DNA of 64,000 bases from Oscillospiraceae bacterium (GTDB taxonomy: Bacteria; Bacillota; Clostridia; Oscillospirales; Ruminococcaceae), in the NCBI GenBank assembly GCA_030539275.1, contig JAUNSK010000006.1:62001-126000 (forward strand). Direction: 5' to 3'. The notes under the pieces are model-generated. The model had not been told where the DNA came from. It did no database searches and saw nothing but the letters and a program-made list of their open reading frames with translations. Position 1 is the first letter of the stretch. Every line of letters begins with the position of its first letter. Of the stretch, positions 14,628-43,899 are shown piece by piece. A program made the translations under genes and the position numbers.

Positions 14628-15500
14628 TCATTTCTTTATATCAGCCACAACTTTTGCAATATCCTCGTCAATACAAATCGACCTATTTTCAATCTGCATA
14701 GCCGTATATGCTTCACCCTTGTTGATACAAGCGTAAGCCGCATGCGGATTATCTGCCGTCATTTGCAGAAAGGGAATTTTAATAATGACAGGAGTATTAC
14801 TCCCAACACCAAGCTCAAAAAACAATATGTGCTGATTTTCACGGCTGCGCAAAAAATTTTCATAACGGCTTGAAGCTTCATACCAACCTGCGTCCTGAAC
14901 AAATTTATCATCACAGCGTAAATTCATTGTCATGGGCTTATTACAAATCGGACAGCGTGGAATCAGTTCTGTTGGAATTTTCATATTTGTCTGACGCAGA
15001 ACCATTTGCTTTATAAGCCCGGCATTATCGTATGTCCTGCTTTGACAGCCGTCGGTGCATTGAAATAGACCGTAGTCGCCTTGTGTATAAAACAAACGCT
15101 TTTTATCAAAGCCTGTAAGCTGAAACTGATGGTCAACATTCGTTGTCAGCACAAAATAATCCTTGTCCTTGACAATGGACAAAACGTCAGAATACAGCCT
15201 GCCCGGTTCTGTTTCGTAACGGTTGTAATAAATCTGGCGTGACCACCATGCCCAGTATTCCTCAAGCGTTTCGTATGGATAAAATCCGCCCGAATACATA
15301 TCTGTTATGCCGTATTTTTCTTTAAAATCCGAGAAATACCTGTCAAAGCGTTCCCCGCTGTATGTGAAGCCTGCGGCTGCGGAAAGCCCTGCACCTGCAC
15401 CGATTATCACTGTGTCACAGCTTTCAAGTTCTATTTTCAGCCTTTCTATTTTCTGCGAGTAATTTTCTGTATATTTCATAGTCTTGATTTTTGAAAACAT
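14628..15500 (-). CDS. Class M sirtuin (SirTM), probable protein ADP-ribosyltransferase
   Basis: Sirtuin landmarks are GAGAGLSAAAG (34-44) for NAD binding, TTNVDHQ with Asn121 and Asp123, and zinc cysteines C148, C152, C183 and C186. The residue where deacetylases carry the catalytic His is Gln140 (FYTQGDYG). That substitution marks macrodomain-linked SirTM enzymes, described as ADP-ribosylating a lipoylated GcvH-like protein. The AAGGTGATATATA site supports the start at 15500, so the gene overlaps the macrodomain gene by 77 bases, implying coupling. No gcvH-L or lipoate ligase gene is beside it here. Confidence 0.85.
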   Translation of the reverse strand: MFSKIKTMKYTENYSQKIERLKIELESCDTVIIGAGAGLSAAAGFTYSGERFDRYFSDFKEKYGITDMYSGGFYPYETLEEYWAWWSRQIYYNRYETEPGRLYSDVLSIVKDKDYFVLTTNVDHQFQLTGFDKKRLFYTQGDYGLFQCTDGCQSRTYDNAGLIKQMVLRQTNMKIPTELIPRCPICNKPMTMNLRCDDKFVQDAGWYEASSRYENFLRSRENQHILFFELGVGSNTPVIIKIPFLQMTADNPHAAYACINKGEAYTAMQIENRSICIDEDIAKVVADIKK

Positions 15501-16227
15501 TATATATCACCTTGATTTTACTGTTGGTTTCTTCTTTGTATTTCGCTATCGTTTTTACTGCAATTTCTGCCGCCTTGTCGTTTGGAAAACGAAAAACACC
15601 CGTAGAGATACAGCATAACGCAATGCTATTCAGACCGTTTTTATCTGCAAGAGAAATACAGGAGCGATAGCAGGAGGCAAGCCTGTCGCATTCCGTTTCT
15701 GTAAGTCTATCATACACAATCGGTCCGACGGTGTGTATCACATATTTGCTTGGCAGATTATATGCGGAGGTGATTTTAGTGTTGCCTGTCGGTTCATCAT
15801 ATCCTTGCTCACGCATCAATTCTGCACAAGCAAGACGAAGCTGTATTCCTGCATAGGTGTGTATGGCGTTATCAATACAACCGTGACACGGCTGAAAACA
15901 ACCGAGCATTCCGGAATTCGCTGCATTGACAATTGCATCGCAGGCAAGCAGAGTAATATCGCCCTGCCATAAATACAAATCATTTCTGACAGGTGTTAAA
16001 CAGTTTAATTCCGTAATCCCTCTCGCCGCAGTTTCTTCTTTCAGATATTCATCCTGAACAGACAGAAATTCATCGTTTACGGTAATAGGCAATCGTACAT
16101 TAAGCAAAGACCTCAGCATTTTTTTCTGCTCTGCCGTATCTGTCGGAATTGTTGAGATTCCGCTATATTTCGGTTGCTCACTTAAAAGCTCCTGTATCAG
16201 AAAAATACGCTTTTCTTCGTTTGTCAT
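15424..16227 (-). CDS. Zinc-containing macrodomain protein-ADP-ribose hydrolase
   Basis: The 267-aa protein has an N-terminal helical extension, then a macrodomain from about residue 75. Key features are GDIT (89-92), AIVNAANSGMLGC (98-110), a Cys/His cluster at 109-117 (GCFQPCHGC) as in Zn-macro enzymes, IHTVGPI, and a glycine-containing STGVFRFP loop. Zn-macro proteins paired with SirTM remove the ADP-ribose that SirTM adds, giving a reversible switch. It starts after AAGGAGCGAAT and is the first gene of the pair. Confidence 0.88.
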   Translation of the reverse strand: MTNEEKRIFLIQELLSEQPKYSGISTIPTDTAEQKKMLRSLLNVRLPITVNDEFLSVQDEYLKEETAARGITELNCLTPVRNDLYLWQGDITLLACDAIVNAANSGMLGCFQPCHGCIDNAIHTYAGIQLRLACAELMREQGYDEPTGNTKITSAYNLPSKYVIHTVGPIVYDRLTETECDRLASCYRSCISLADKNGLNSIALCCISTGVFRFPNDKAAEIAVKTIAKYKEETNSKIKVIYNVFKNQDYEIYRKLLAENRKAENRT

Positions 16228-22941: not shown

Positions 22942-23487
22942 ATGAAGTACAATAAAAATGATCTGATCTTATCAGTAAAAAACGGCAGGGAAACACAGTA
23001 CATATTTTTCTGGGGACATACTCCTGATAAAGGTGGAAAAATAAAAAAATCATGTCTCAGCCAGTGGTACAAATGCACTTTCACTGTTGAAGGCACAGTT
23101 TATCATACAGCAGAACAGTACATGATGGCACAGAAAGCACTTTTGTTTGGGGATAAAGAAATATTCAGCCGTATTATGCAGGCAAAAGAGCCGGATGAAT
23201 ATAAAAAGCTTGGCAGAATGATACGCGGATTTGATGAGAAGATATGGGCTCAGAACCGCTGTAATATCGTGATCGCCGGCAACACAGCAAAGTTTTCACA
23301 AAATGATGATCTGAAGAGCTTTCTTGTGTCTACAGGTGAAAAAGTACTGGTTGAAGCCAGTCCGTATGATAATCTTTGGGGTATAGGAATTAATGCTTCA
23401 GATGATGACTGTAATGATCCGGAAAAATGGCCGGGTGAAAACCTTCTGGGATTTTGTCTTATGGAAGCCAGGGATAATCTTAAGTAA
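22942..23487 (+). CDS. NADAR-family (YbiA-like) N-glycosidase
   Basis: The 181-aa single-domain protein has the NADAR hallmarks: IFFWGH near the start, LSQWYKCTFTVEGTVYHTAEQYMMAQKA (residues 40-67) with the conserved Glu, an ILNxNxxKF-equivalent VIAGNTAKFSQN, and the C-terminal ENLLGFCLMEAR. NADAR enzymes cleave N-glycosidic bonds, and some remove ADP-ribose from guanine in DNA or act on riboflavin intermediates. It stands just upstream of an NAD salvage operon, which suggests a link to ADP-ribose handling. AAAGGAGACAGCT precedes the ATG. Confidence 0.9.
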   Translation: MKYNKNDLILSVKNGRETQYIFFWGHTPDKGGKIKKSCLSQWYKCTFTVEGTVYHTAEQYMMAQKALLFGDKEIFSRIMQAKEPDEYKKLGRMIRGFDEKIWAQNRCNIVIAGNTAKFSQNDDLKSFLVSTGEKVLVEASPYDNLWGIGINASDDDCNDPEKWPGENLLGFCLMEARDNLK

Positions 23488-26831: not shown

Positions 26832-28858
26832 TTATTCTTTTCTGAGATAAATATCAGGGAGAACTATATTCCATTCACTTGAGTCTTCCTTGTCTGTCCA
26901 CTTTACGATAAATCTTATTTCTGCCTTGTATATCCGGTAGCCTTTTTTATAAAGGCCTGCGAGCTTTTGAGTGAACTGGCCGGAGTACAGTATCACATTG
27001 ACAGGCGTACCGGTCTTATATGTTGCAAGCATTCTGTTGTGTGCTGAAAGTTCATCGCCGCTCATCAGCAGTGAAATAGTTTTCTGAACATGTATATTTT
27101 CAAAAAATCCAAGATTAATATCTCTGTGAGAAAGCGGATATACGATTTCCTGCGGCTCGTCATAGCTTCGGGGGTCACGCAGCTTCTGTGTATTCTGAGC
27201 TCTTATATGATCAAAAAGTATGTTATAGCTACTATTATCTGAATATCACCGCGGATGAATGCGTCCTGATTGCTGATCTTTGTCTGGGGATCCATTTTTC
27301 CGTTAAATGCTGCCGCATTGAATCCGTCGTTCTTAAGCTTTAGTGCAAGCTCAAGAGTCTTTTTAGTTCTTGAAGCATATACAATAGTCGGACAGTTTTT
27401 GCTTTCGATGAGATTTCGCATCGTTATGTACTTTTCATCAGCAGTCTCCTGATGCAGAACCTCATATCTGAGGTTTGTCCTGGCCGAACCTGTAGCAAAC
27501 AGCGAAAGATCAAGTCCCAGCTTAAGTTTGAAATATTCTCTGATATCACTTATTACCTTCTGTTTAGCAGTTGCTGTGAAACAGGAAACAGGTATGGTAA
27601 AACTGAGATCTTTCTTTTTCATCAGTTCTGTAATGAAATCTGCTATATACAGATAATCGACACGAAAATCCTGTCCCCAGGCAGAAAAACAATGTGCCTC
27701 ATCGATAACAAATCTTGCTATACTTCTGGATAGAAGCAGTTTTTCGATCGTCTTGCTTCTCAGTGATTCAGGTGAAATATACAGCAATGATGCTCTGCCG
27801 TCAGCTATTGCTTCAATTGCATCTGCTCTCTCAAGAGGGCTCAAAAGTCCGTTAATAGTAACGGCATCATAAATTCCAAGTGAACAAAGATTGTCTACCT
27901 GGTCCTTCATCAGAGACTGAAGAGGGGAGATTACTACTGTCAAAGCACCATAAGATTCACCTGCCATAATGGCGGGAAGCTGAAATGTCAGGGATTTTCC
28001 TCCTCCTGTCGGAAATACTGCAAGCAGAGAGTTATTGTTTACAGCGCTCTCACATGCTCTCTTCTGAAGTGGTTCTCCGTTATATATTCTGAAGCTGTCA
28101 TATCCGAATATATCCTTAAGCCTTACACCAACATCAAGCTTTTCATTACAGTACCTGCAGCTCTGGTGACAGGGAACTGCCCTGAGACAGCGCATTACAT
28201 AACTAACAGCAGGATATTTCTTTAATACCCAGTGAGGCATAACTGTAGATTTATTTTCAGTACTAACCTGTGACAGACAGTAGGCAAGTTCTGTCGGATA
28301 CATTTTAATAAGCGAATTAAGGTCTGCATTTTCACATATGAGACCATAAAACACCTGTCCTATCAGCTTTTTTAAGTCTGCACCGCTTGAACTGCAGTTC
28401 ATGAATTTAAAAAATCCATAAAACTCTTTTTTGTCATAGAGAAGCTGACAGTATATATCCCTGACGGCAAGCTGCAGATCAGAAAATGTGCTTACTTCCT
28501 CAAAAAACAGATCCATTGCTTTAACTGCATCGTTGTATGGATTACTCAGTTCTTCATCAGAAATCTTATCATCCTTGCTGAGACTATGAAAAAGTTTGTC
28601 AGGAAACAGCAGAGGTGACAGATACAACGTATCCACTGCATAAGAGATGTCTGTTGTATTTACCAGATCCCCGATATATCTGAGGTCGTGTTCTATTAAA
28701 TTATGTCCGCAGATATATTCTGCGCCGCTGATAAACCTGACAAAATCACCAGCTGATGCCGAATGCAGCTTTGAATGATCCGGTTTTACCCCACCGTAAT
28801 CAAGAACCTTTGATTTCTCAGGATTTACTTCAGTATCGATAAATACTATAGATTTCAT
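26832..28858 (-). pseudogene. RecQ-like helicase with N-terminal exonuclease domain, internally deleted
   Basis: From 28858 to 27203 the frame encodes a DnaQ-like exonuclease start (VFIDTEVNPEK) and a RecQ helicase first half: Walker A FPTGGGKS near residue 283, DEAHCFSAWGQDFR near 386. It stops abnormally after DIQIIVAI, where RecQ proteins continue into the NAFGMG motif. A second frame (27240 to 26832) then reads SYNILFDHIRAQNTQKLRDP..., ending at PDIYLRKE. This resembles the far C-terminus of the long clostridial RecQ-like proteins. The middle, including helicase motifs V-VI, is missing and the join is out of frame. The N-terminal 551 aa could still be made, but not as a working helicase. 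Confidence 0.7.
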
Positions 28859-35602: not shown

Positions 35603-36054
35603 ATTGATTCCTCCCTGGAGATTTTTTGTCGGTCAATTAATTATTTCTACATAAGTAATACTTTAAGGGATGTATAAAAGCTACAGATGATTTACTAATT
35701 ATTGAAGAAAAGAATAAACAAGGAAACCGACCTGCATTTTCATCATCGGGCATAATGTACTTTGCCATTTATGAGGATCAGCTGAATACACAATACAATT
35801 GCCGGTAACATAAGCACTGTATAAAGTAAATGAATTAAATTATCTTAATAAAAATGGAAAATAAATACAACTAATGATTAAACGTGATAATGCTTATTTT
35901 TGAATCTGCCAGTACCTAAAGGTTGCAAAAATCATCATTTTTGTGTAAAATAGTATATATAACTCTGATTCATTTCAATTTTTAAACTTGTATAGCTTCT
36001 GTGCTGATGTCAATGATTAATATATAATTAATTTCAATGAACCGGGTGATATAT
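35603..36054. other. Divergent intergenic region, no gene seen
   Basis: About 450 bases of AT-rich sequence separate the leftward LRR genes from the rightward defence-like operon. A TATAAT box at 36023-36028 is a reasonable -10 for the latter, though its -35 is weak. I saw no structured RNA or repeat. Confidence 0.4.
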
Positions 36055-36489
36055 ATGAGATTATGGTCATGGCAGCTGCTGCCTTATCTGCCGGATCTTC
36101 AGCTGCGCGGTCAGCTCATGGAACTTGTCGGGCTTATGCATGAATGGCGTGACAAGGGGACGACCAATCATCTTGTAGTCAATAAAGTTATGGAGTATCC
36201 AAAAAGTGAATTATCAGGATATTTCAAATATTATAAAGACATTATGAGACGCAGATATGGCAATAATCTTGATAAATATATAGCAGAGTTCAGAGATTTT
36301 TCCGGTCCGGCGCACCACAAGGATTCATTTTTTGATGGCTGGCATGACCGTGAATACATGAGAGTCTGCATGGCAAATCTCTATGAAAAATACAGGTTTG
36401 GTGTAGGTAAATCACGCATCACGCAAGAGCAGTGGGAAGTTCTGTGTATCGGATATAAGAAATATACAGGTGAGGATTACAAAATATAA
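36055..36489 (+). CDS. Pyrimidine-dimer glycosylase/endonuclease V-like protein (Pyr_excise family)
   Basis: The 144-aa protein opens MRLWSWQLLPYLPDLQLRGQ, close to the MRLWHxxLIPxLPxxQLxGQ opening of bacterial T4 endonuclease V-like proteins (TIGR02328/PF03013). The family cuts at UV-damaged or otherwise altered bases. The ATG at 36055 has GGGTGAT in front and starts exactly at the family's first residue; an ATG 18 bases upstream adds an unmatched MNRVIY. It lies 18 bases before the jetD remnant, so it may share the Wadjet-like transcript. Link to defence is an inference. Confidence 0.8.
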   Translation: MRLWSWQLLPYLPDLQLRGQLMELVGLMHEWRDKGTTNHLVVNKVMEYPKSELSGYFKYYKDIMRRRYGNNLDKYIAEFRDFSGPAHHKDSFFDGWHDREYMRVCMANLYEKYRFGVGKSRITQEQWEVLCIGYKKYTGEDYKI

Positions 36490-36507: not shown

Positions 36508-36977
36508 ATGGACATAAGAACCTATATTAAGGATTCCAGAAATAAGACCTTTACTCTGACTCAGCTGATGCAGGCTTCCGGCGTAAAAAATGAGGAAGAA
36601 CTGTTCAGAATAATTACGGCCTGTACTGATTCGGGCGATATAGAGCCGGTAAGGGCTTCAGGAACAAACGGAAACAGAAAATATCCTTTGTAAATAAAAT
36701 ACAGAAAAAAAGAGAACAGGAACACTCAGTTACCAATGTAAACCCTGAGCTTGATATAAATGCATTTGTTCCGGCATATGAAAAAATGCTGGAGCTTTCT
36801 GCCGGGATCAGGCTGCCTGACAGCGCAGACATGAGAAATGTCCCGGTCGAGACGGATTTTATAGAAAAATCATTTGACTCTGAAGCAGCCCGCAGGATAA
36901 CAGACCTGCTAAGCGCAAACAAACGGCTTCCACAGGAAATTGTAACTTACAAATATCTATGTACAACTATGAAATAA
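36508..36977 (+). pseudogene. Decayed jetD: N- and C-terminal ends kept, nuclease core deleted
   Basis: From 36508 the frame encodes a helix-turn-helix-like N-terminus (MDIRTYIKDSRNKTFTLTQL...NRKYPL) and stops at TAA 36691-36693. The codons after it continue IKYRK, so the stop stands where JetD relatives have Tyr (LYNKYR). In another frame, from about 36741, the text reads NPELDINAFVPAYEKMLELS and ends RLPQEIVTYKYLCTTMK, matching my memory of JetD C-termini. About 150-155 codons remain of a usual 370-400. The TOPRIM nuclease region is gone. It sits where jetD stands in D-A-B-C operons, 13 bases before jetA. Confidence 0.6.
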
Positions 36978-36990
36978 AGAAAGGTATAAA

Positions 36991-38541
36991 ATGAACCTCG
37001 AAATTAGCGAAATACTTGACGGCTTTGAACAGCGAATGAAATATATGAGTATCGTGAGGTGCCTTACAGAGCATACACGTCCTGATGTTATACGGGATAT
37101 TATCAGCGACGACGATATGCTCAACAACTGCATTATGGCGGTGCTTGTTTACATAATGGAACATAATCTGAGATATGACGCTGAATGTACAATTGACAAT
37201 GTATCCTCTTTTCTGCGTGAATTTCTTATTCTCAACGAAACAGATCCTGAAAGTTCTCCGGTACTAGCAAAGTACATAGTAGTAAACGTGCTTCAGAACA
37301 GCGGTATTATTCATGAGTTTCCTGTGTTCAGTCCGCTGACAATGAAGTGTGAGAAAATAAATATCAGACTTATCAATGATGTCAAAGGACGTTATCATCT
37401 TACTGATGACGCATATGAGTTTCTGTTTCGAACCAAGGAAATTGACAGTGAGCTTGACTTTTCGGTTGCCCGTTTCAAGCTGCATGAGCTTTTAAAGCGT
37501 GGAAATTACAACGATGCCCTCAGGCAGAGCAGGGAGCTTGTCAGCAAGATAAGAACCATGAAATCAGGTATCAATGACTTTATACAGAGATGCCGTGAAA
37601 ATATTTCACAGATCCTCATAGATGAATATGAAAAGATCATAAACAAGATACATACCATACTCAGTGAAGAAAGCAATGAGCTTGAGTCACTTGAGAAAAA
37701 TGTTCAGCTTACTCTGGATGCCATGAACCAGACAGATGAATACAACCGTGAGAATAATATCATCAACCAGAACATCAGATCAATGAACGAGATAGTATCA
37801 AATATCAGAATTGCTATCAATGAACAGCGTTCGCTTATGAACAGGCAGTACGATCTGTCAAAACAGTATCAGCAGCTTCTTCTAGACAATATGTATATCA
37901 GAAGCTATAAACGGTTCAATTTAGAACAAGAGCTTCTGGATGTATTCCGTAAAAAAGGCAGTGATACAGACAAGCTGTGTGATTTTGCACAGTTTATTCT
38001 CGGACCGTTCGGGAAACCACGCCTGAAAAAATATTTCAGTATCAGTGACTTCTATGACAAACAGAGCCTGACTGATAAGGAGTTAAGTGACAATGAAATA
38101 GTCCTTGAATCAGAAGATGACCAGGCAGCAAAATTAATTGACAGACGAAATGAGCTGCATCTTGGAATAATAAAAAGTCTTTTCATTTATATACAGGATC
38201 ATTCAAGGTTTACAGTAAGTGAATATCTTCACAGTCTGACACTGGAGGAGTTTGAAAACTACTGTGACGAACAGCTGCTTCCAGGCGTACTGCTTGCGCT
38301 GTACGATACAGGACGTATAGATATTGACAGCTGGAAAAGCACTCCTAAAACCATAATAGAACCTAACGGAGAATTTGAACTGGCATGGTGCCTGAGCAGA
38401 CTTCCGGATGAACTGCTTGAAATAAATGCTGTAAATATTATATGGAGTGATAAAACAACATTAATGAATATTTCTGACGGGGAGCGTCAGAGAAAAATTG
38501 AAATAACTGATTTTATAATAGAGGTGTCAGCAAATGAATGA
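36991..38541 (+). CDS. jetA: Wadjet-like JetA (kleisin-type subunit, DUF5716-like)
   Basis: The 516-aa cytoplasmic protein has an N-terminal winged-helix-like region (about 1-150), a long central coiled coil (about 170-330, rich in Glu, Asn, Ile and Leu with heptad spacing), and a C-terminal globular domain. This is the layout of MukF/JetA-type kleisins that bridge SMC heads. I equate it with the DUF5716 family found beside DUF6063 and SMC genes in clostridia. AAAGGTATAAA precedes the ATG. It overlaps jetB by 8 bases. The JetA name rests on gene order and architecture. Confidence 0.75.
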   Translation: MNLEISEILDGFEQRMKYMSIVRCLTEHTRPDVIRDIISDDDMLNNCIMAVLVYIMEHNLRYDAECTIDNVSSFLREFLILNETDPESSPVLAKYIVVNVLQNSGIIHEFPVFSPLTMKCEKINIRLINDVKGRYHLTDDAYEFLFRTKEIDSELDFSVARFKLHELLKRGNYNDALRQSRELVSKIRTMKSGINDFIQRCRENISQILIDEYEKIINKIHTILSEESNELESLEKNVQLTLDAMNQTDEYNRENNIINQNIRSMNEIVSNIRIAINEQRSLMNRQYDLSKQYQQLLLDNMYIRSYKRFNLEQELLDVFRKKGSDTDKLCDFAQFILGPFGKPRLKKYFSISDFYDKQSLTDKELSDNEIVLESEDDQAAKLIDRRNELHLGIIKSLFIYIQDHSRFTVSEYLHSLTLEEFENYCDEQLLPGVLLALYDTGRIDIDSWKSTPKTIIEPNGEFELAWCLSRLPDELLEINAVNIIWSDKTTLMNISDGERQRKIEITDFIIEVSANE

Positions 38542-39238
38542 AAAAGCTCTGATGATCTTCAGACAGCTGCTTAAAACCGGGATGATATCAAGAAATGATA
38601 ATCCTGAGTTATGGAATGATTTTGAAACTGCTCAGGTCCGCGAGGCACTTGATGTGCTCAGAAAACAGCTTGACTTTGATATTTACCGGGCATCAGACCG
38701 TGCATATCTGATACCGGAAGAGGATAATGTTATATTCAGCAAGGACAATATGGATTTCAGACGTGATATAAGATCAGGAAATGATATAAAGATCACTGAT
38801 CTGTATCTTCTCAACTACATGTCAATGTATCTTCTGTACGAATTTTTTCATGGAGAGGGTGCGGAACCTTTATGCAGGGATTTTGTAGAGCAGGATGATT
38901 TTATCAGCATTTTTACAAGTCACTGTGAATCTGTCAGCCTGAGAAAATCGGATGCAGATGACATCAGTGATAAATACAGCATTAATTTCTGCAAAATGGC
39001 TGATCAGTGGCTTACAAAAACATATGGTGAACCTGACAGCAGACAGATCGCTACAAAAACAGGATGTCTTAACAGAGTGCTCATCAAAATGAGAAATGAA
39101 AATCTGTTTATTGATGACAACAACATGATAGTTCCTACTCAGAAGCTAAAGGATATCATGCCTTATTTTCTAAGAAAAGAAAGAACAGCTTCAATTCACA
39201 GATTTTTAGGAGGTCAGGACAATGCCGCAGATCAGTAA
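38534..39238 (+). CDS. jetB: Wadjet-like JetB (small bridging subunit, DUF6063-like)
   Basis: The 234-aa protein is predicted to be a tandem winged-helix protein, the MukE/KITE-like partner that binds kleisin and SMC. It begins EKALMIFRQLLKTGMISRND, has a central LYLLNYMSMYLLYEFFHGEG helix, and a C-terminal LNRVLIKMRNENLFIDDNN segment. It overlaps jetA by 8 bases and jetC by 17 bases, so the three products are made in step. I recall the family as DUF6063, always adjacent to DUF5716 genes. Confidence 0.75.
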   Translation: MNEKALMIFRQLLKTGMISRNDNPELWNDFETAQVREALDVLRKQLDFDIYRASDRAYLIPEEDNVIFSKDNMDFRRDIRSGNDIKITDLYLLNYMSMYLLYEFFHGEGAEPLCRDFVEQDDFISIFTSHCESVSLRKSDADDISDKYSINFCKMADQWLTKTYGEPDSRQIATKTGCLNRVLIKMRNENLFIDDNNMIVPTQKLKDIMPYFLRKERTASIHRFLGGQDNAADQ

Positions 39239-42200
39239 GATAAGAGTAGTTAACTGCTGGTACAATAACGGAAAAAGACTGATACCGGATGAAACCTTTG
39301 ATTTTCTGTCTCCGTCTGCTCAGCCGAACAATACCCTGATCGCACTGGCAAACGGAGGCGGAAAGTCAGTTCTTGTACAGATGATGCTTCAGCCTGTGTG
39401 TCCTCTCAGGAGTCTCGGCAGAAGGATAGGGGACTATTTTGAAAAGGCCAGTGACCACTGCTACATACTGCTCGAATGGAAACTCGATGGTTCTAACGAG
39501 TATCTGCTGACCGGTATCTCTATCTCTGCCGGTGCAAGAACAGACAGTGAGGATGAGAATGAAAATAAAACACGAACTCTGAAGCATTATACATTCACAG
39601 CCAAATATATCCCGTCAGGCACCAGTGACTATACACTTGACAATCTGCCTCTCTCATCTATGGAAAACGGACAGTTTAAAGCTCAGTCATTCTCATTTGT
39701 AAGGGATCTTGCCAAGAATAAAAATAATATAACTGTTTTTTCAGACAGTGAACATGAAAAATACCGTCACGAACTGCTTAACCACGGCATCTCAAGATTT
39801 GAGTGGGAAAATGTCATCAGTAAGGTAAACCTTGTTGAGGGAGGACTCATAAAATATTTTGAAGCCTTCAGGACTTCGGACTCACTTATCAATAATCTCC
39901 TTATCAAAACTATTGAGGATAACCAGAACAGCAGCGGTGATGATCAGTCACTTAAAAATCTGTTTATTAATTACTCTGGAGAATACAGTAGGTTGAGGGA
40001 AAACGAGGAACGCCGCGGGTTTGCTGCACAGGTAAGAGATGAGATCACAGGTAAGCTTACCGGAGTTGAACATCTGCGGGAACTCAGTGATGAGCTTGCG
40101 TCATCACAGGCTGTTATGCGTGGTTTCATCAAAGCACTAGGAGTAAAGTATCAGCAGCTGCGAAAATCAGAAGATGATATTGCCCGGAAGACAGCATCAC
40201 TCAAAGATGATATCAGGCATCTTAGGTTTGAAGAGGCTTCACTTGTTTACTATAAAGCTGATTCGCTGTATTCTGACGCCGATGCTGAATATATTAAGGC
40301 ACTCAATAAACTTGAGGATACTCAGTTTAATTATAATGATACTGAAAAAAAGCTCAGGATAATGAAATGTGCACATGAAAACGATCAGATCAGAAGACTG
40401 ACAGGTGAAAAACAGGGTGCTGCCATTGCGATCGATCAACTGAGCGGAAATTCTGAATATCTCAACAGATCTCAGAAGCTTGGATATTCAATATATTTTA
40501 AAGCTGATAAAGAAGCTAAGGAAACTGATTTTTCAATTAATGATCTGAATAATAAAATCATCGAATCTGATCAGGTGCTGGAACAGGCAAAAAAACAGAA
40601 AAAGGAACTTCAGACGCAGTACAGCAGAATAAAATCTGAAGCTGACACCATGAGCGGAAGACTTATCAGTTTAGATGAGTCGATCTCAAAGAAAGCAGCG
40701 ATGCTGGAACTTGATCTGGTCAGGAAACTTGATGCTAGTTATCAGACTGACTGTATAACTGATGAAAGAAAAAAACTTGAGGATCGTCGCAATGAGATCT
40801 GTGAAGAAAGACAGTCTCTGTGCAATGAAAAAGCAGAGCTTGAGAAGAGAAAAAAAGAGATCATAAAAGAAGAAATTGCGCTGACTGTTAAAATAAATGA
40901 ACTTAAGGCAAGCATTGACGTGCAGGAAAAAAATCTTGATGAATATAATACTGCTTCTGAGAAGATAAATGAACTCTGTCAGCTCTTCTCACTGCCGGAC
41001 GACAGCATTTATAACGGCAGACTTACTCAGGTGATTTTAAATGCTGTAAAACAGGTAAAGGCAGAATCAGAGGGAATAAGCCACCGCATTATTCTTCAGA
41101 ATGAGCAGATAGAGGCTGCAAAAAAAGGTTGTCTGCATATACCTCATGCAGTACTAAAGTATCTTGATTCGACTTCAATAGAATACCAGACATGTGAAAA
41201 GTATTTAAGAAGCGGTTCGTACAGTAAAGAAAAAATTTCTCAGATGCTGACCATCATGCCTCAACTGGCATTTGGAATTGCGGTGTTTGATGATGACTAT
41301 GAAAAGATACTTGCAGACTCGTCAGCTCAGTGGCTGCCATGCGTTGTTCCTGTTTTCAGATATGACGATATTGCAGAATGTGCCAAAGGAAATTCGGTTA
41401 TATCTAACCGCATGATCTCTTGTTATTCAAAAAGATATTTTGATGATCCTGACGGATGTTGCCATGATTTTGAAAACAGCCTGAATTCATTGAAAGAATC
41501 CTATAACTTTCAGCAGGATCGTATCAAAAAGCTTGATGATTATATCGGGATCTGCAGCGCGTTTACATATGCAAGCGATTTTAAGGAAAAACAGACACTG
41601 AAAATTCAGTCAATAAAAAATGATATTTCAAAAGCTAACACAGAGCTTTCGCAGACACAGGCAAGTGCCGGAAAAACGGATGAGCGCATAAATGAAATCA
41701 CTGTGCTTTCAGGAAATCTTGATAAAGAAAGCAATGCAGTTAATTCTGAGCTGAGTTCACTTAACGAGCTTTTTCAGGATTGTGAAAACTGCCATAAATA
41801 CCTTGAAGAAATATCAGCTATGAGCTCACAGCTCAAAGACATTGAAACACGCAGCAACAAGGCTGAGCAGATCATCAGTGAACAGACGGCCGTAAGCGGA
41901 GATCTGAAAGCTTCTCTCAGAAACGCAGCAGAGATCAAAAGCAAGCTGAACGGATACTTAGAGCAGTTCAGGGATTATAAGCCAACAGAAATTTTAGACG
42001 ATGATATAGAATCTCTGATTTCACAGCTCAGTAAACTCAATGAAAACCAGAACAAAAGCATTGAAGAACTGAATAAAGTGATTGAAAGGTGCACCGGTGA
42101 GATCAGCCGATGCAGAAAAGAAATCAGCCGTCTTGGTATAGAAGAAGAACTGTATGCCGGAGTAATGTATTCAGGTGAAAGAGAAGAGGAACTGATAAGT

Positions 42201-43586
42201 CAGTGTGATAAACTGAATAATGAGAAAAAAACTATTGAATCTGATAAAAATGAAAAGTATGAGACAAGAATGAAATTAATGTCAAAGAGGGAAGTAGCTC
42301 AGGAAAAACTATATGATTTTTCTCCTGATAAAACTCCTCTGTCTGTAAATGAAATATCAGACTGCATTCATAAGGATGTCATCAGAGAAAAGAACTCGCA
42401 GCTCAGCGGATATATTGATGAGTCGGAAAAGATCAATAAGAAAGCCGGAGAAATAAAAATAATACTGGATTCACAAGGTGATTATACGAAAGATTTAAAT
42501 CTGCGTATAAATACAGTTGAGATAGAAAGTGACCCGTCCGCACAAAGACAGCGTATTTCAGACCTGATAGCAAAAGCTTCAAAAGAATTCAGTATTGCAG
42601 AGCATGATTTCAGGCAGGAAATTGATGAGATGAAAAAAAGGCTTGATAAAAGAGATGATTTTGCTCAGGTATTTGATGATATATATTCTGTTATAGCAAG
42701 AGAAAGTGAAGACGGTGACAAATATAGAACACTCAGCGTTCATATGCAGGATCAGGCAGCAACTCTGAGTAAGCTTATTAATGCACTTGATACTGATCTT
42801 TCAAAGCTTGATGAGAAAAAAGAATTTCTTATAGAACAGTGTCAGCGGCAGGGAAAATATATTTACGATGAACTTAAAACCATATCTGCTGGTTCAAAGG
42901 TCAAAATAAACGGTCACAGTACACCTGTTGTCATGCTAAAGCTTGATCTGAATGAAGAAATTGATGAAAGTGCTGCGAGGTCACGCATTGAGACAGAAAC
43001 TCAGACAGGTATCCGTGAATATCTTGATGCGGTTGAAAAAAATGATGATGAAACTTCGCTTATGAAAATTGCAGACAGGATAGTCAGCAGCAGAAATCTT
43101 CTGAACAAATACACCGGAAGAGACAGCATTTCAGTCAGGGTCTACAAGATCGATGTCAACGAAAAGAACGGAACGTACAGAACCTGGGAACAGTCACTTG
43201 TCAAAAACAGCGGTGGTGAGTGCTTCGTAGTCTATTTTTCAGTTTTACTTTCTGTTATGAGCTACGCAAGATCATCCGAAGCATGTGCGTCAGCACCGGG
43301 AATAAAAGCCGGAAGTGTACTCATCCTCGACAATCCATTCGGCGCGATCACTTCATCCCATCTTCTCGAACCGATGTTCCAGATAGCCCGAAAGTTCAGA
43401 GTCCAGCTCATATGTCTGTCCGATATCAGCAAATGCAACATAACAAAATGCTTCGATACCGTAATCAGAATAACGATCCGAAAACTTCAGTTCTCAAACT
43501 ACGAGATATTAACCCCCGAACGCGACGACCAGCTAGAACAAACCGAACACGCCTTCTACAAAACCCAGCAAATAAGTATGTTCTGA
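39222..43586 (+). CDS. jetC: Wadjet-like JetC (SMC/MukB-type ATPase)
   Basis: The 1454-aa SMC-like ATPase has Walker A ANGGGKSVLVQMM near residues 43-55, very long coiled coils on either side of a central hinge-like globular region (about 620-760), the ABC signature VKNSGGECF near 1328-1336 and Walker B GSVLILDNPFG near 1363-1373. All ATPase motifs are intact. In Wadjet systems this protein extrudes DNA loops and, with JetD, recognises and cleaves plasmids. AGGAGG at 39208 precedes the ATG, inside jetB. Here the nuclease partner is broken, so loop extrusion without cleavage is the most it could do alone. Confidence 0.85.
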   Translation: MPQISKIRVVNCWYNNGKRLIPDETFDFLSPSAQPNNTLIALANGGGKSVLVQMMLQPVCPLRSLGRRIGDYFEKASDHCYILLEWKLDGSNEYLLTGISISAGARTDSEDENENKTRTLKHYTFTAKYIPSGTSDYTLDNLPLSSMENGQFKAQSFSFVRDLAKNKNNITVFSDSEHEKYRHELLNHGISRFEWENVISKVNLVEGGLIKYFEAFRTSDSLINNLLIKTIEDNQNSSGDDQSLKNLFINYSGEYSRLRENEERRGFAAQVRDEITGKLTGVEHLRELSDELASSQAVMRGFIKALGVKYQQLRKSEDDIARKTASLKDDIRHLRFEEASLVYYKADSLYSDADAEYIKALNKLEDTQFNYNDTEKKLRIMKCAHENDQIRRLTGEKQGAAIAIDQLSGNSEYLNRSQKLGYSIYFKADKEAKETDFSINDLNNKIIESDQVLEQAKKQKKELQTQYSRIKSEADTMSGRLISLDESISKKAAMLELDLVRKLDASYQTDCITDERKKLEDRRNEICEERQSLCNEKAELEKRKKEIIKEEIALTVKINELKASIDVQEKNLDEYNTASEKINELCQLFSLPDDSIYNGRLTQVILNAVKQVKAESEGISHRIILQNEQIEAAKKGCLHIPHAVLKYLDSTSIEYQTCEKYLRSGSYSKEKISQMLTIMPQLAFGIAVFDDDYEKILADSSAQWLPCVVPVFRYDDIAECAKGNSVISNRMISCYSKRYFDDPDGCCHDFENSLNSLKESYNFQQDRIKKLDDYIGICSAFTYASDFKEKQTLKIQSIKNDISKANTELSQTQASAGKTDERINEITVLSGNLDKESNAVNSELSSLNELFQDCENCHKYLEEISAMSSQLKDIETRSNKAEQIISEQTAVSGDLKASLRNAAEIKSKLNGYLEQFRDYKPTEILDDDIESLISQLSKLNENQNKSIEELNKVIERCTGEISRCRKEISRLGIEEELYAGVMYSGEREEELISQCDKLNNEKKTIESDKNEKYETRMKLMSKREVAQEKLYDFSPDKTPLSVNEISDCIHKDVIREKNSQLSGYIDESEKINKKAGEIKIILDSQGDYTKDLNLRINTVEIESDPSAQRQRISDLIAKASKEFSIAEHDFRQEIDEMKKRLDKRDDFAQVFDDIYSVIARESEDGDKYRTLSVHMQDQAATLSKLINALDTDLSKLDEKKEFLIEQCQRQGKYIYDELKTISAGSKVKINGHSTPVVMLKLDLNEEIDESAARSRIETETQTGIREYLDAVEKNDDETSLMKIADRIVSSRNLLNKYTGRDSISVRVYKIDVNEKNGTYRTWEQSLVKNSGGECFVVYFSVLLSVMSYARSSEACASAPGIKAGSVLILDNPFGAITSSHLLEPMFQIARKFRVQLICLSDISKCNITKCFDTVIRITIRKLQFSNYEILTPERDDQLEQTEHAFYKTQQISMF

Positions 43587-43600
43587 CCCCCGTTTTCCTA

Positions 43601-43872
43601 TGAATCACCGAAGGTTCAGGGCGACCGGAAAGCCCTGATCGCCTCCGCAGAGGCGAAACTTCTGAAAGACAATAAAAACTATTTATATCTGTAAAAACTA
43701 TGAATCACCGAAGGTTCAGGGCGATCGGAAAGCCCTGATCGCCTCCGCAGAGGCGAAACTTCTGAAAGATAATAAAAACCATTTATATCTGTAAAAACTA
43801 TGAATCACCGAAGGTTCAGGGCGACCGGAAAGCCCTGATCGCTTCCGCAGAAGCGAAACATCTGAAAGACAA
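43601..43872 (+). repeat. Three tandem copies of an exact 100-bp repeat with two conserved hairpins
   Basis: Units start at 43601, 43701 and 43801 (the last about 72 bp). Each begins TGAATCACCGAAGGTTCAGG and contains CAGGGC...GCCCTG and TCGCCTC-CGCA-GAGGCGA hairpins. Copy 3 changes the second stem to TCGCTTC-CGCA-GAAGCGA, altering both sides so that pairing is kept. The GC-rich cores are separated by an A/T-rich linker. It lies between jetC and a GNAT gene. There is no spacer variation as in CRISPR. The function is unknown; it may be structured RNA or a REP-like array. Confidence 0.85.
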
Positions 43873-43899
43873 TTCTAAACATATTAAAAGGAGACAACT

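Follow-up and report, generated by a model that had tools for sequence, protein, structure and literature searches.

A type III Wadjet operon with intact jetA, jetB and jetC and a nuclease gene reduced to its two ends, probably by recent loss

On the forward strand of the window (the whole stretch of 64,000 nucleotides that was analysed, from an Oscillospiraceae bacterium), five consecutive genes lie between positions 36037 and 43586: a small gene, a broken jetD, jetA, jetB and jetC. The features are as follows.

36037..36489, + strand: small pyrimidine-dimer glycosylase-like gene (Pfam PF03013, E 6.4e-07, above cut-off)
36508..36690, + strand: jetD remnant, N-terminal piece (PADLOC JetD3, E 6.2e-06; alignment with intact JetDs)
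36691..36693, + strand: in-frame TAA at the usual Tyr position of intact JetDs (alignment)
36694..36731, + strand: N-side homology running out with IKYR at 36705, followed by the deletion junction (alignment)
36732..36977, + strand: C-terminal piece of the jetD remnant, in a different frame and closed by jetD's own stop (PADLOC JetD3, E 1.2e-10)
36991..38541, + strand: jetA, kleisin-like subunit, intact, 516 aa (PADLOC JetA3, E 1e-117)
38534..39238, + strand: jetB, KITE-like subunit, intact, 234 aa (PADLOC JetB3, E 1.4e-61; Pfam DUF6063, E 3.1e-35)
39222..43586, + strand: jetC, SMC-type ATPase, intact, 1454 aa (PADLOC JetC3, E 1.1e-111; ATPase motifs)

An initial annotation, made from the letters of the sequence, had described jetA, jetB and jetC as full-length and overlapping. 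The open reading frames lie where it had placed them, with overlaps of 8 bases between jetA and jetB and of 17 bases between jetB and jetC, and they cover the JetA3, JetB3 and JetC3 profiles of PADLOC near full length. All three profiles are type III Wadjet families, and the genes are adjacent and in order. The ATPase motifs that had been read in jetC were also recovered by alignment, in columns that are invariant with five relatives: Walker A (N44 G45 G46 G47 K48), the signature (N1329 S1330 G1331, with E1333) and Walker B (L1367 I1368 L1369 D1370 N1371). Judged from its genes, the operon is a type III Wadjet system in the order D-A-B-C, in which a full-length JetD is absent. Immediately 3' of jetC, a 100-base unit is repeated 2.8 times (43598-43873), and a 28-base core of this repeat has three further copies in the genome with at most two mismatches, on C9, C13 and C43.

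The initial proposal that the two pieces before jetA are the ends of JetD is borne out by profile matches. The N-terminal piece has 61 codons, corresponds to the winged-helix-like first part of JetD and matches positions 3-59 of the 346 in the JetD3 profile, whereas the C-terminal piece matches positions 262-342, or approximately residues 261-340 in the numbering of the JetD of locus L069. The expected replacement of a tyrosine by a stop was found as well, as the window reads NRKYPL-stop-IKYR where L091 has NRNYPLYIKYR, and intact JetDs mostly have Y at this position. The two pieces are in different reading frames, and about 185-195 codons between them are gone; the deletion junction and the frame change lie somewhere in about 36706-36731. 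As originally read, the C-terminal piece contains RLPQEIVTYKYLC, followed by TTMK and the stop at 36975-36977. Residues E186, N187, K188, D189, D247 and D249 (L069 numbering), which are invariant in 32 sequences, all fall within the deleted part, and the TOPRIM catalytic residues (E plus DxD: E186, D247 and D249) are consequently missing from the remnant. In a structural comparison, the predicted model of an intact JetD copy aligned best to MksG, JetD and Topo VI-A, and JetD profile A2, searched against the sequences of solved structures, hit none with an E of 10 or less. The jetD of the window is a pseudogene that lacks the catalytic part. In Bacillus subtilis, plasmid suppression requires all four Wadjet subunits.

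Searching with jetA in the genus (11 genomes) recovered, apart from the operon of the window itself, a distant relative in one of the 10 others, and a family sample of 396 genomes, own included, returned distant relatives in 8 others. The closest jetA, jetB and jetC among the relatives found share 39.5, 44.8 and 30.1% identity, respectively. Nine relative loci were extracted, of which eight include the jetD position and one (L020) starts inside jetA. Seven of the eight carry a single jetD of 329-353 aa directly before jetA, which is matched by the window pieces in BLAST. At the remaining one (L018), a 348-aa protein occupies the jetD position, without a BLAST match, yet it aligns with JetDs. 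A jetA scan of the genome contig collection for same-species strains found nothing, nor did a jetC scan of viral contigs.

A wider survey consisted of a jetC-profile scan of an 84,980-genome collection, in which 373 relatives were found and the best 80 kept, corresponding to 74 distinct loci; some of these duplicate loci from the genome search (e.g. L017 and L043). A gene was considered intact when one open frame covered at least 88% of the profile, a definition that the jetC of L062 passed though it lies in two frames. Eight loci were excluded from the jetD count because their contig starts within the operon or right in front of it (L027, L030, L037, L058, L062, L067, L092 and L093). Among the 66 assessable loci that remained from these best relatives, jetD is whole in 64. 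The two exceptions are L088, in which it is interrupted, and L087, in which it is absent together with jetA and jetB although upstream DNA is present. In the clostridial locus L088 (4317-4467), about 150 stop-rich bases break jetD just before the GDID motif; jetA and jetB are whole, and jetC is open up to the contig end. L087 (6000-10050) carries jetC without D, A and B, and an upstream open frame resembles a transposon-type gene, as judged from its translation. Other subunits are broken too, with jetC split in L062, L089, L090 and L091 and jetA split in L031, although many of the survey loci stem from metagenome assemblies, where an apparent frame error may be spurious. The jetC of L076 stops 129 bases short of the contig end and was counted neither way. 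Hence, a broken jetD beside sound jetABC is rare, yet not rarer than breaks in other subunits. The comparison with D-A-B-C relatives, which the initial annotation had suggested, accordingly showed a whole jetD there, both before jetA in the extracted loci and in nearly all of the assessable survey loci, and no relative bearing the same short jetD gene intact was seen.

It had also been suggested to look for another jetD elsewhere in the genome. A whole-genome search with the JetD3 family (PDLC00592), run to E 10, found none besides the two remnant places, and JetD_C (PF09983) had no match under the same limit; as a control, all four intact type III JetDs tested matched PF09983 above the cut-off. 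The genome is in 49 contigs and 96.16% complete, and an extra jetD hidden in an assembly gap is possible. Within this assembly, SMC, kleisin and KITE genes stand without a nuclease partner, as in MksBEF. Matches to the plasmid replication protein PF01446, sought as a mark of plasmid tolerance, numbered zero in the genome and likewise zero in the controls, which makes this result uninformative.

It is very improbable that JetABC has recruited another DNA-cutting enzyme, be it the upstream PF03013 gene or a nuclease at another place that escaped recognition. Eighteen bases separate the end of the PF03013 gene from the jetD remnant, which follows it on the + strand, and the gene is perhaps co-transcribed with the jet operon. 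Of the 61 related genomes searched, the 60 others gave no match to it. It also had no match in any of the 74 survey loci. As it matched in neither set, it is no usual partner of Wadjet. Its family name, moreover, suggests base-excision repair, and it scores 33.1 bits against NCBIfam TIGR02328, for which the cut-off is 121.15 bits.

The window contains another gene that has been reduced in a similar manner. A RecQ-like helicase gene (26838-28858, - strand), about 8 kb from the broken jetD, is represented by its two ends in different frames: the open frame 27203-28858 keeps amino acids 1-544, and another frame keeps about 1478-1588, as compared with homologues of 1590 and 1592 aa. The match to RecQ covers residues 247-548 of the 27203-28858 product, the N-terminal part of which we take to be exonuclease-like in appearance. 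At a strict cut, this gene was matched in 3 of 60 other genomes, of which two homologues were extracted and the third is a shorter open frame (851 aa). That two genes separated by about 8 kb have both been cut down to their ends points to decay of this stretch by deletion, an assembly fault being the less likely alternative. In the latter case, the break in jetD would be an error of assembly or sequencing and the gene would be whole in the living strain, an explanation in whose favour the contig number and incompleteness of the genome can be cited along with the RecQ-like gene. However, both the nonsense codon and the deletion of about 185-195 codons would then have to be false while the adjoining jet genes are uninterrupted, and we consider an artefact improbable. 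Elsewhere in the window, an overlapping gene pair (14628-16227, - strand), which presumably resembles Sir2-type and macrodomain proteins, had no match in PADLOC, and a gene at 22942-23487 (+ strand) matched the PADLOC candidate defence family PDC-M42C with E 8.8e-47.

The state of the remnant gives an idea about the age of the loss. Of the 14 positions at which 90% or more of 67 intact JetDs agree, 13 are retained, as are 19 of 22 positions at 80% conservation, where the median of intact JetDs is 95%; at this lower cut, drift of the remnant is likely to be under way. Because the remnant still holds most of the conserved JetD positions, the loss of jetD appears to be recent relative to the distances between the surveyed operons. 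The motor genes keep most of their strongly conserved positions (49 of 53 in jetA, 26 of 28 in jetB and 101 of 110 in jetC) and rank, counted from the lowest conservation, 15th of 70, 21st of 74 and 12th of 70, respectively. Their conservation is thus in the lower part of the intact range, but inside it, and recent loss predicts the same. In a midpoint-rooted tree built from the concatenated sequences (64 tips), the root-to-tip path of jetABC is 1.71 against a median of 1.90, the ninth shortest, which counts in favour of a recent loss. Conservation and path length show long-standing constraint and have no bearing on constraint after the loss.

The number of lesions was also considered. For the 6,612 bases of jetABC (25 overlapping bases counted twice), the probability of being lesion-free was calculated as 0.37 at 0.1% and 0.007 at 0.5% neutral divergence with an assumed indel-to-substitution ratio of 0.1; ratios of 0.05, 0.1 and 0.2 were assumed, and every indel was taken as a lesion. 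Under these assumed rates, 6,612 bases without a lesion are rare beyond about 0.5% neutral divergence, and therefore either the loss is quite recent or jetABC is still selected. Furthermore, jetABC is a target 6 to 14 times larger than jetD, and at least two lesions are found in jetD and none in jetABC. Under uniform decay, the chance that the second lesion hits jetD is 6.6-13.5%; the restriction of the damage to jetD is thus mildly unexpected and hints weakly at selection on jetABC.

Selection could have kept JetABC as an SMC motor that works without a nuclease, as has been proposed for MksBEF; it might, for instance, help to organise the chromosome or impede plasmids without cleaving them. 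In addition to the lesions being restricted to jetD within the operon, the uninterrupted reading frames of jetABC and the kept ATPase motifs of jetC would agree with such a function, and a precedent exists in the jetABC of Stenotrophomonas maltophilia, mostly without jetD and with more than 95% average identity among strains (PMC11680222). Nevertheless, the 66 assessable loci of the 74 kept from 373 relatives include no group of type III operons in which jetABC is intact and jetD is missing, the only similar case being L088 with its interrupted jetD. The remnant is still JetD-like, and there may have been too little time for intact jetABC to signify selection. Besides, an ordinary canonical SMC is encoded at C45 of the genome, and no vacancy for such a motor is evident. 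A retained motor is therefore unlikely, albeit with some weight. The intact motor as such is accounted for by recent loss and equally by selection.

Of the two options offered by the initial annotation, a very recent loss or a retained function, the analysis leans towards recent loss. The locus is probably a type III Wadjet operon in which ordinary mutation inactivated the nuclease gene fairly recently and the motor genes have not yet decayed. Most likely, this is what the JetD-like remnant, the decay of the RecQ-like gene nearby and the breaks of jetA and jetC in the survey together reflect. Through a nonsense codon, an internal deletion of about 185-195 codons and a frame change, jetD has been cut back to its ends and has lost the TOPRIM site. 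JetABC may still be made, as jetA has its own start 13 bases past the former stop of jetD. The complex could then still load onto DNA and extrude it, yet it would not cleave plasmids, so that the anti-plasmid function would be lost. For the jetABC genes, the time so far would have been too short for decay. That the system has been disarmed by loss of its nuclease, as was initially supposed, agrees with the deleted catalytic part, with the relatives that have a whole jetD and with the search of the genome for a second JetD.

If jetABC is under selection, the strain would be caught mid-step between plasmid defence and a nuclease-free SMC complex, a transition that has been proposed for MukBEF and MksBEF in the available text of a review (PMC10586767). 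In the likelier case of simple decay, it would be another natural knock-out of a defence operon. For annotation, caution is advisable, since a tool scoring jetA, jetB and jetC alone would call a Wadjet system that does not cut.

Among known systems, a jetABC that lacks jetD has already been published for type I Wadjet (PMC11680222). A keyword search of the literature found no report of a type III counterpart, which is weak evidence of absence, and the accessible portions of PMC10512200, PMC8954581, PMC12786226 and PMC7251935 make no mention of jetABC without jetD. With type III Wadjet, the operon of the window shares the D-A-B-C order, the overlaps, the sizes and the A, B and C family matches, whereas its jetD is a pseudogene that has lost the catalytic part. 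The S. maltophilia Wadjet I likewise has jetABC without a working jetD; in the portion of PMC11680222 that is accessible, the form without jetD is the commoner variant, is termed probably inactive and belongs to a type I system conserved in one defence island across strains. In contrast, the window holds a type III operon, in one genome, with jetD remnants still visible. MksBEF of Pseudomonas aeruginosa is an SMC-kleisin-KITE complex likely born of JetD loss, with a reported role in chromosome segregation, according to the available parts of PMC10586767 and PMC7485682; it is without a nuclease as in the window, where a segregation role would be hypothetical.
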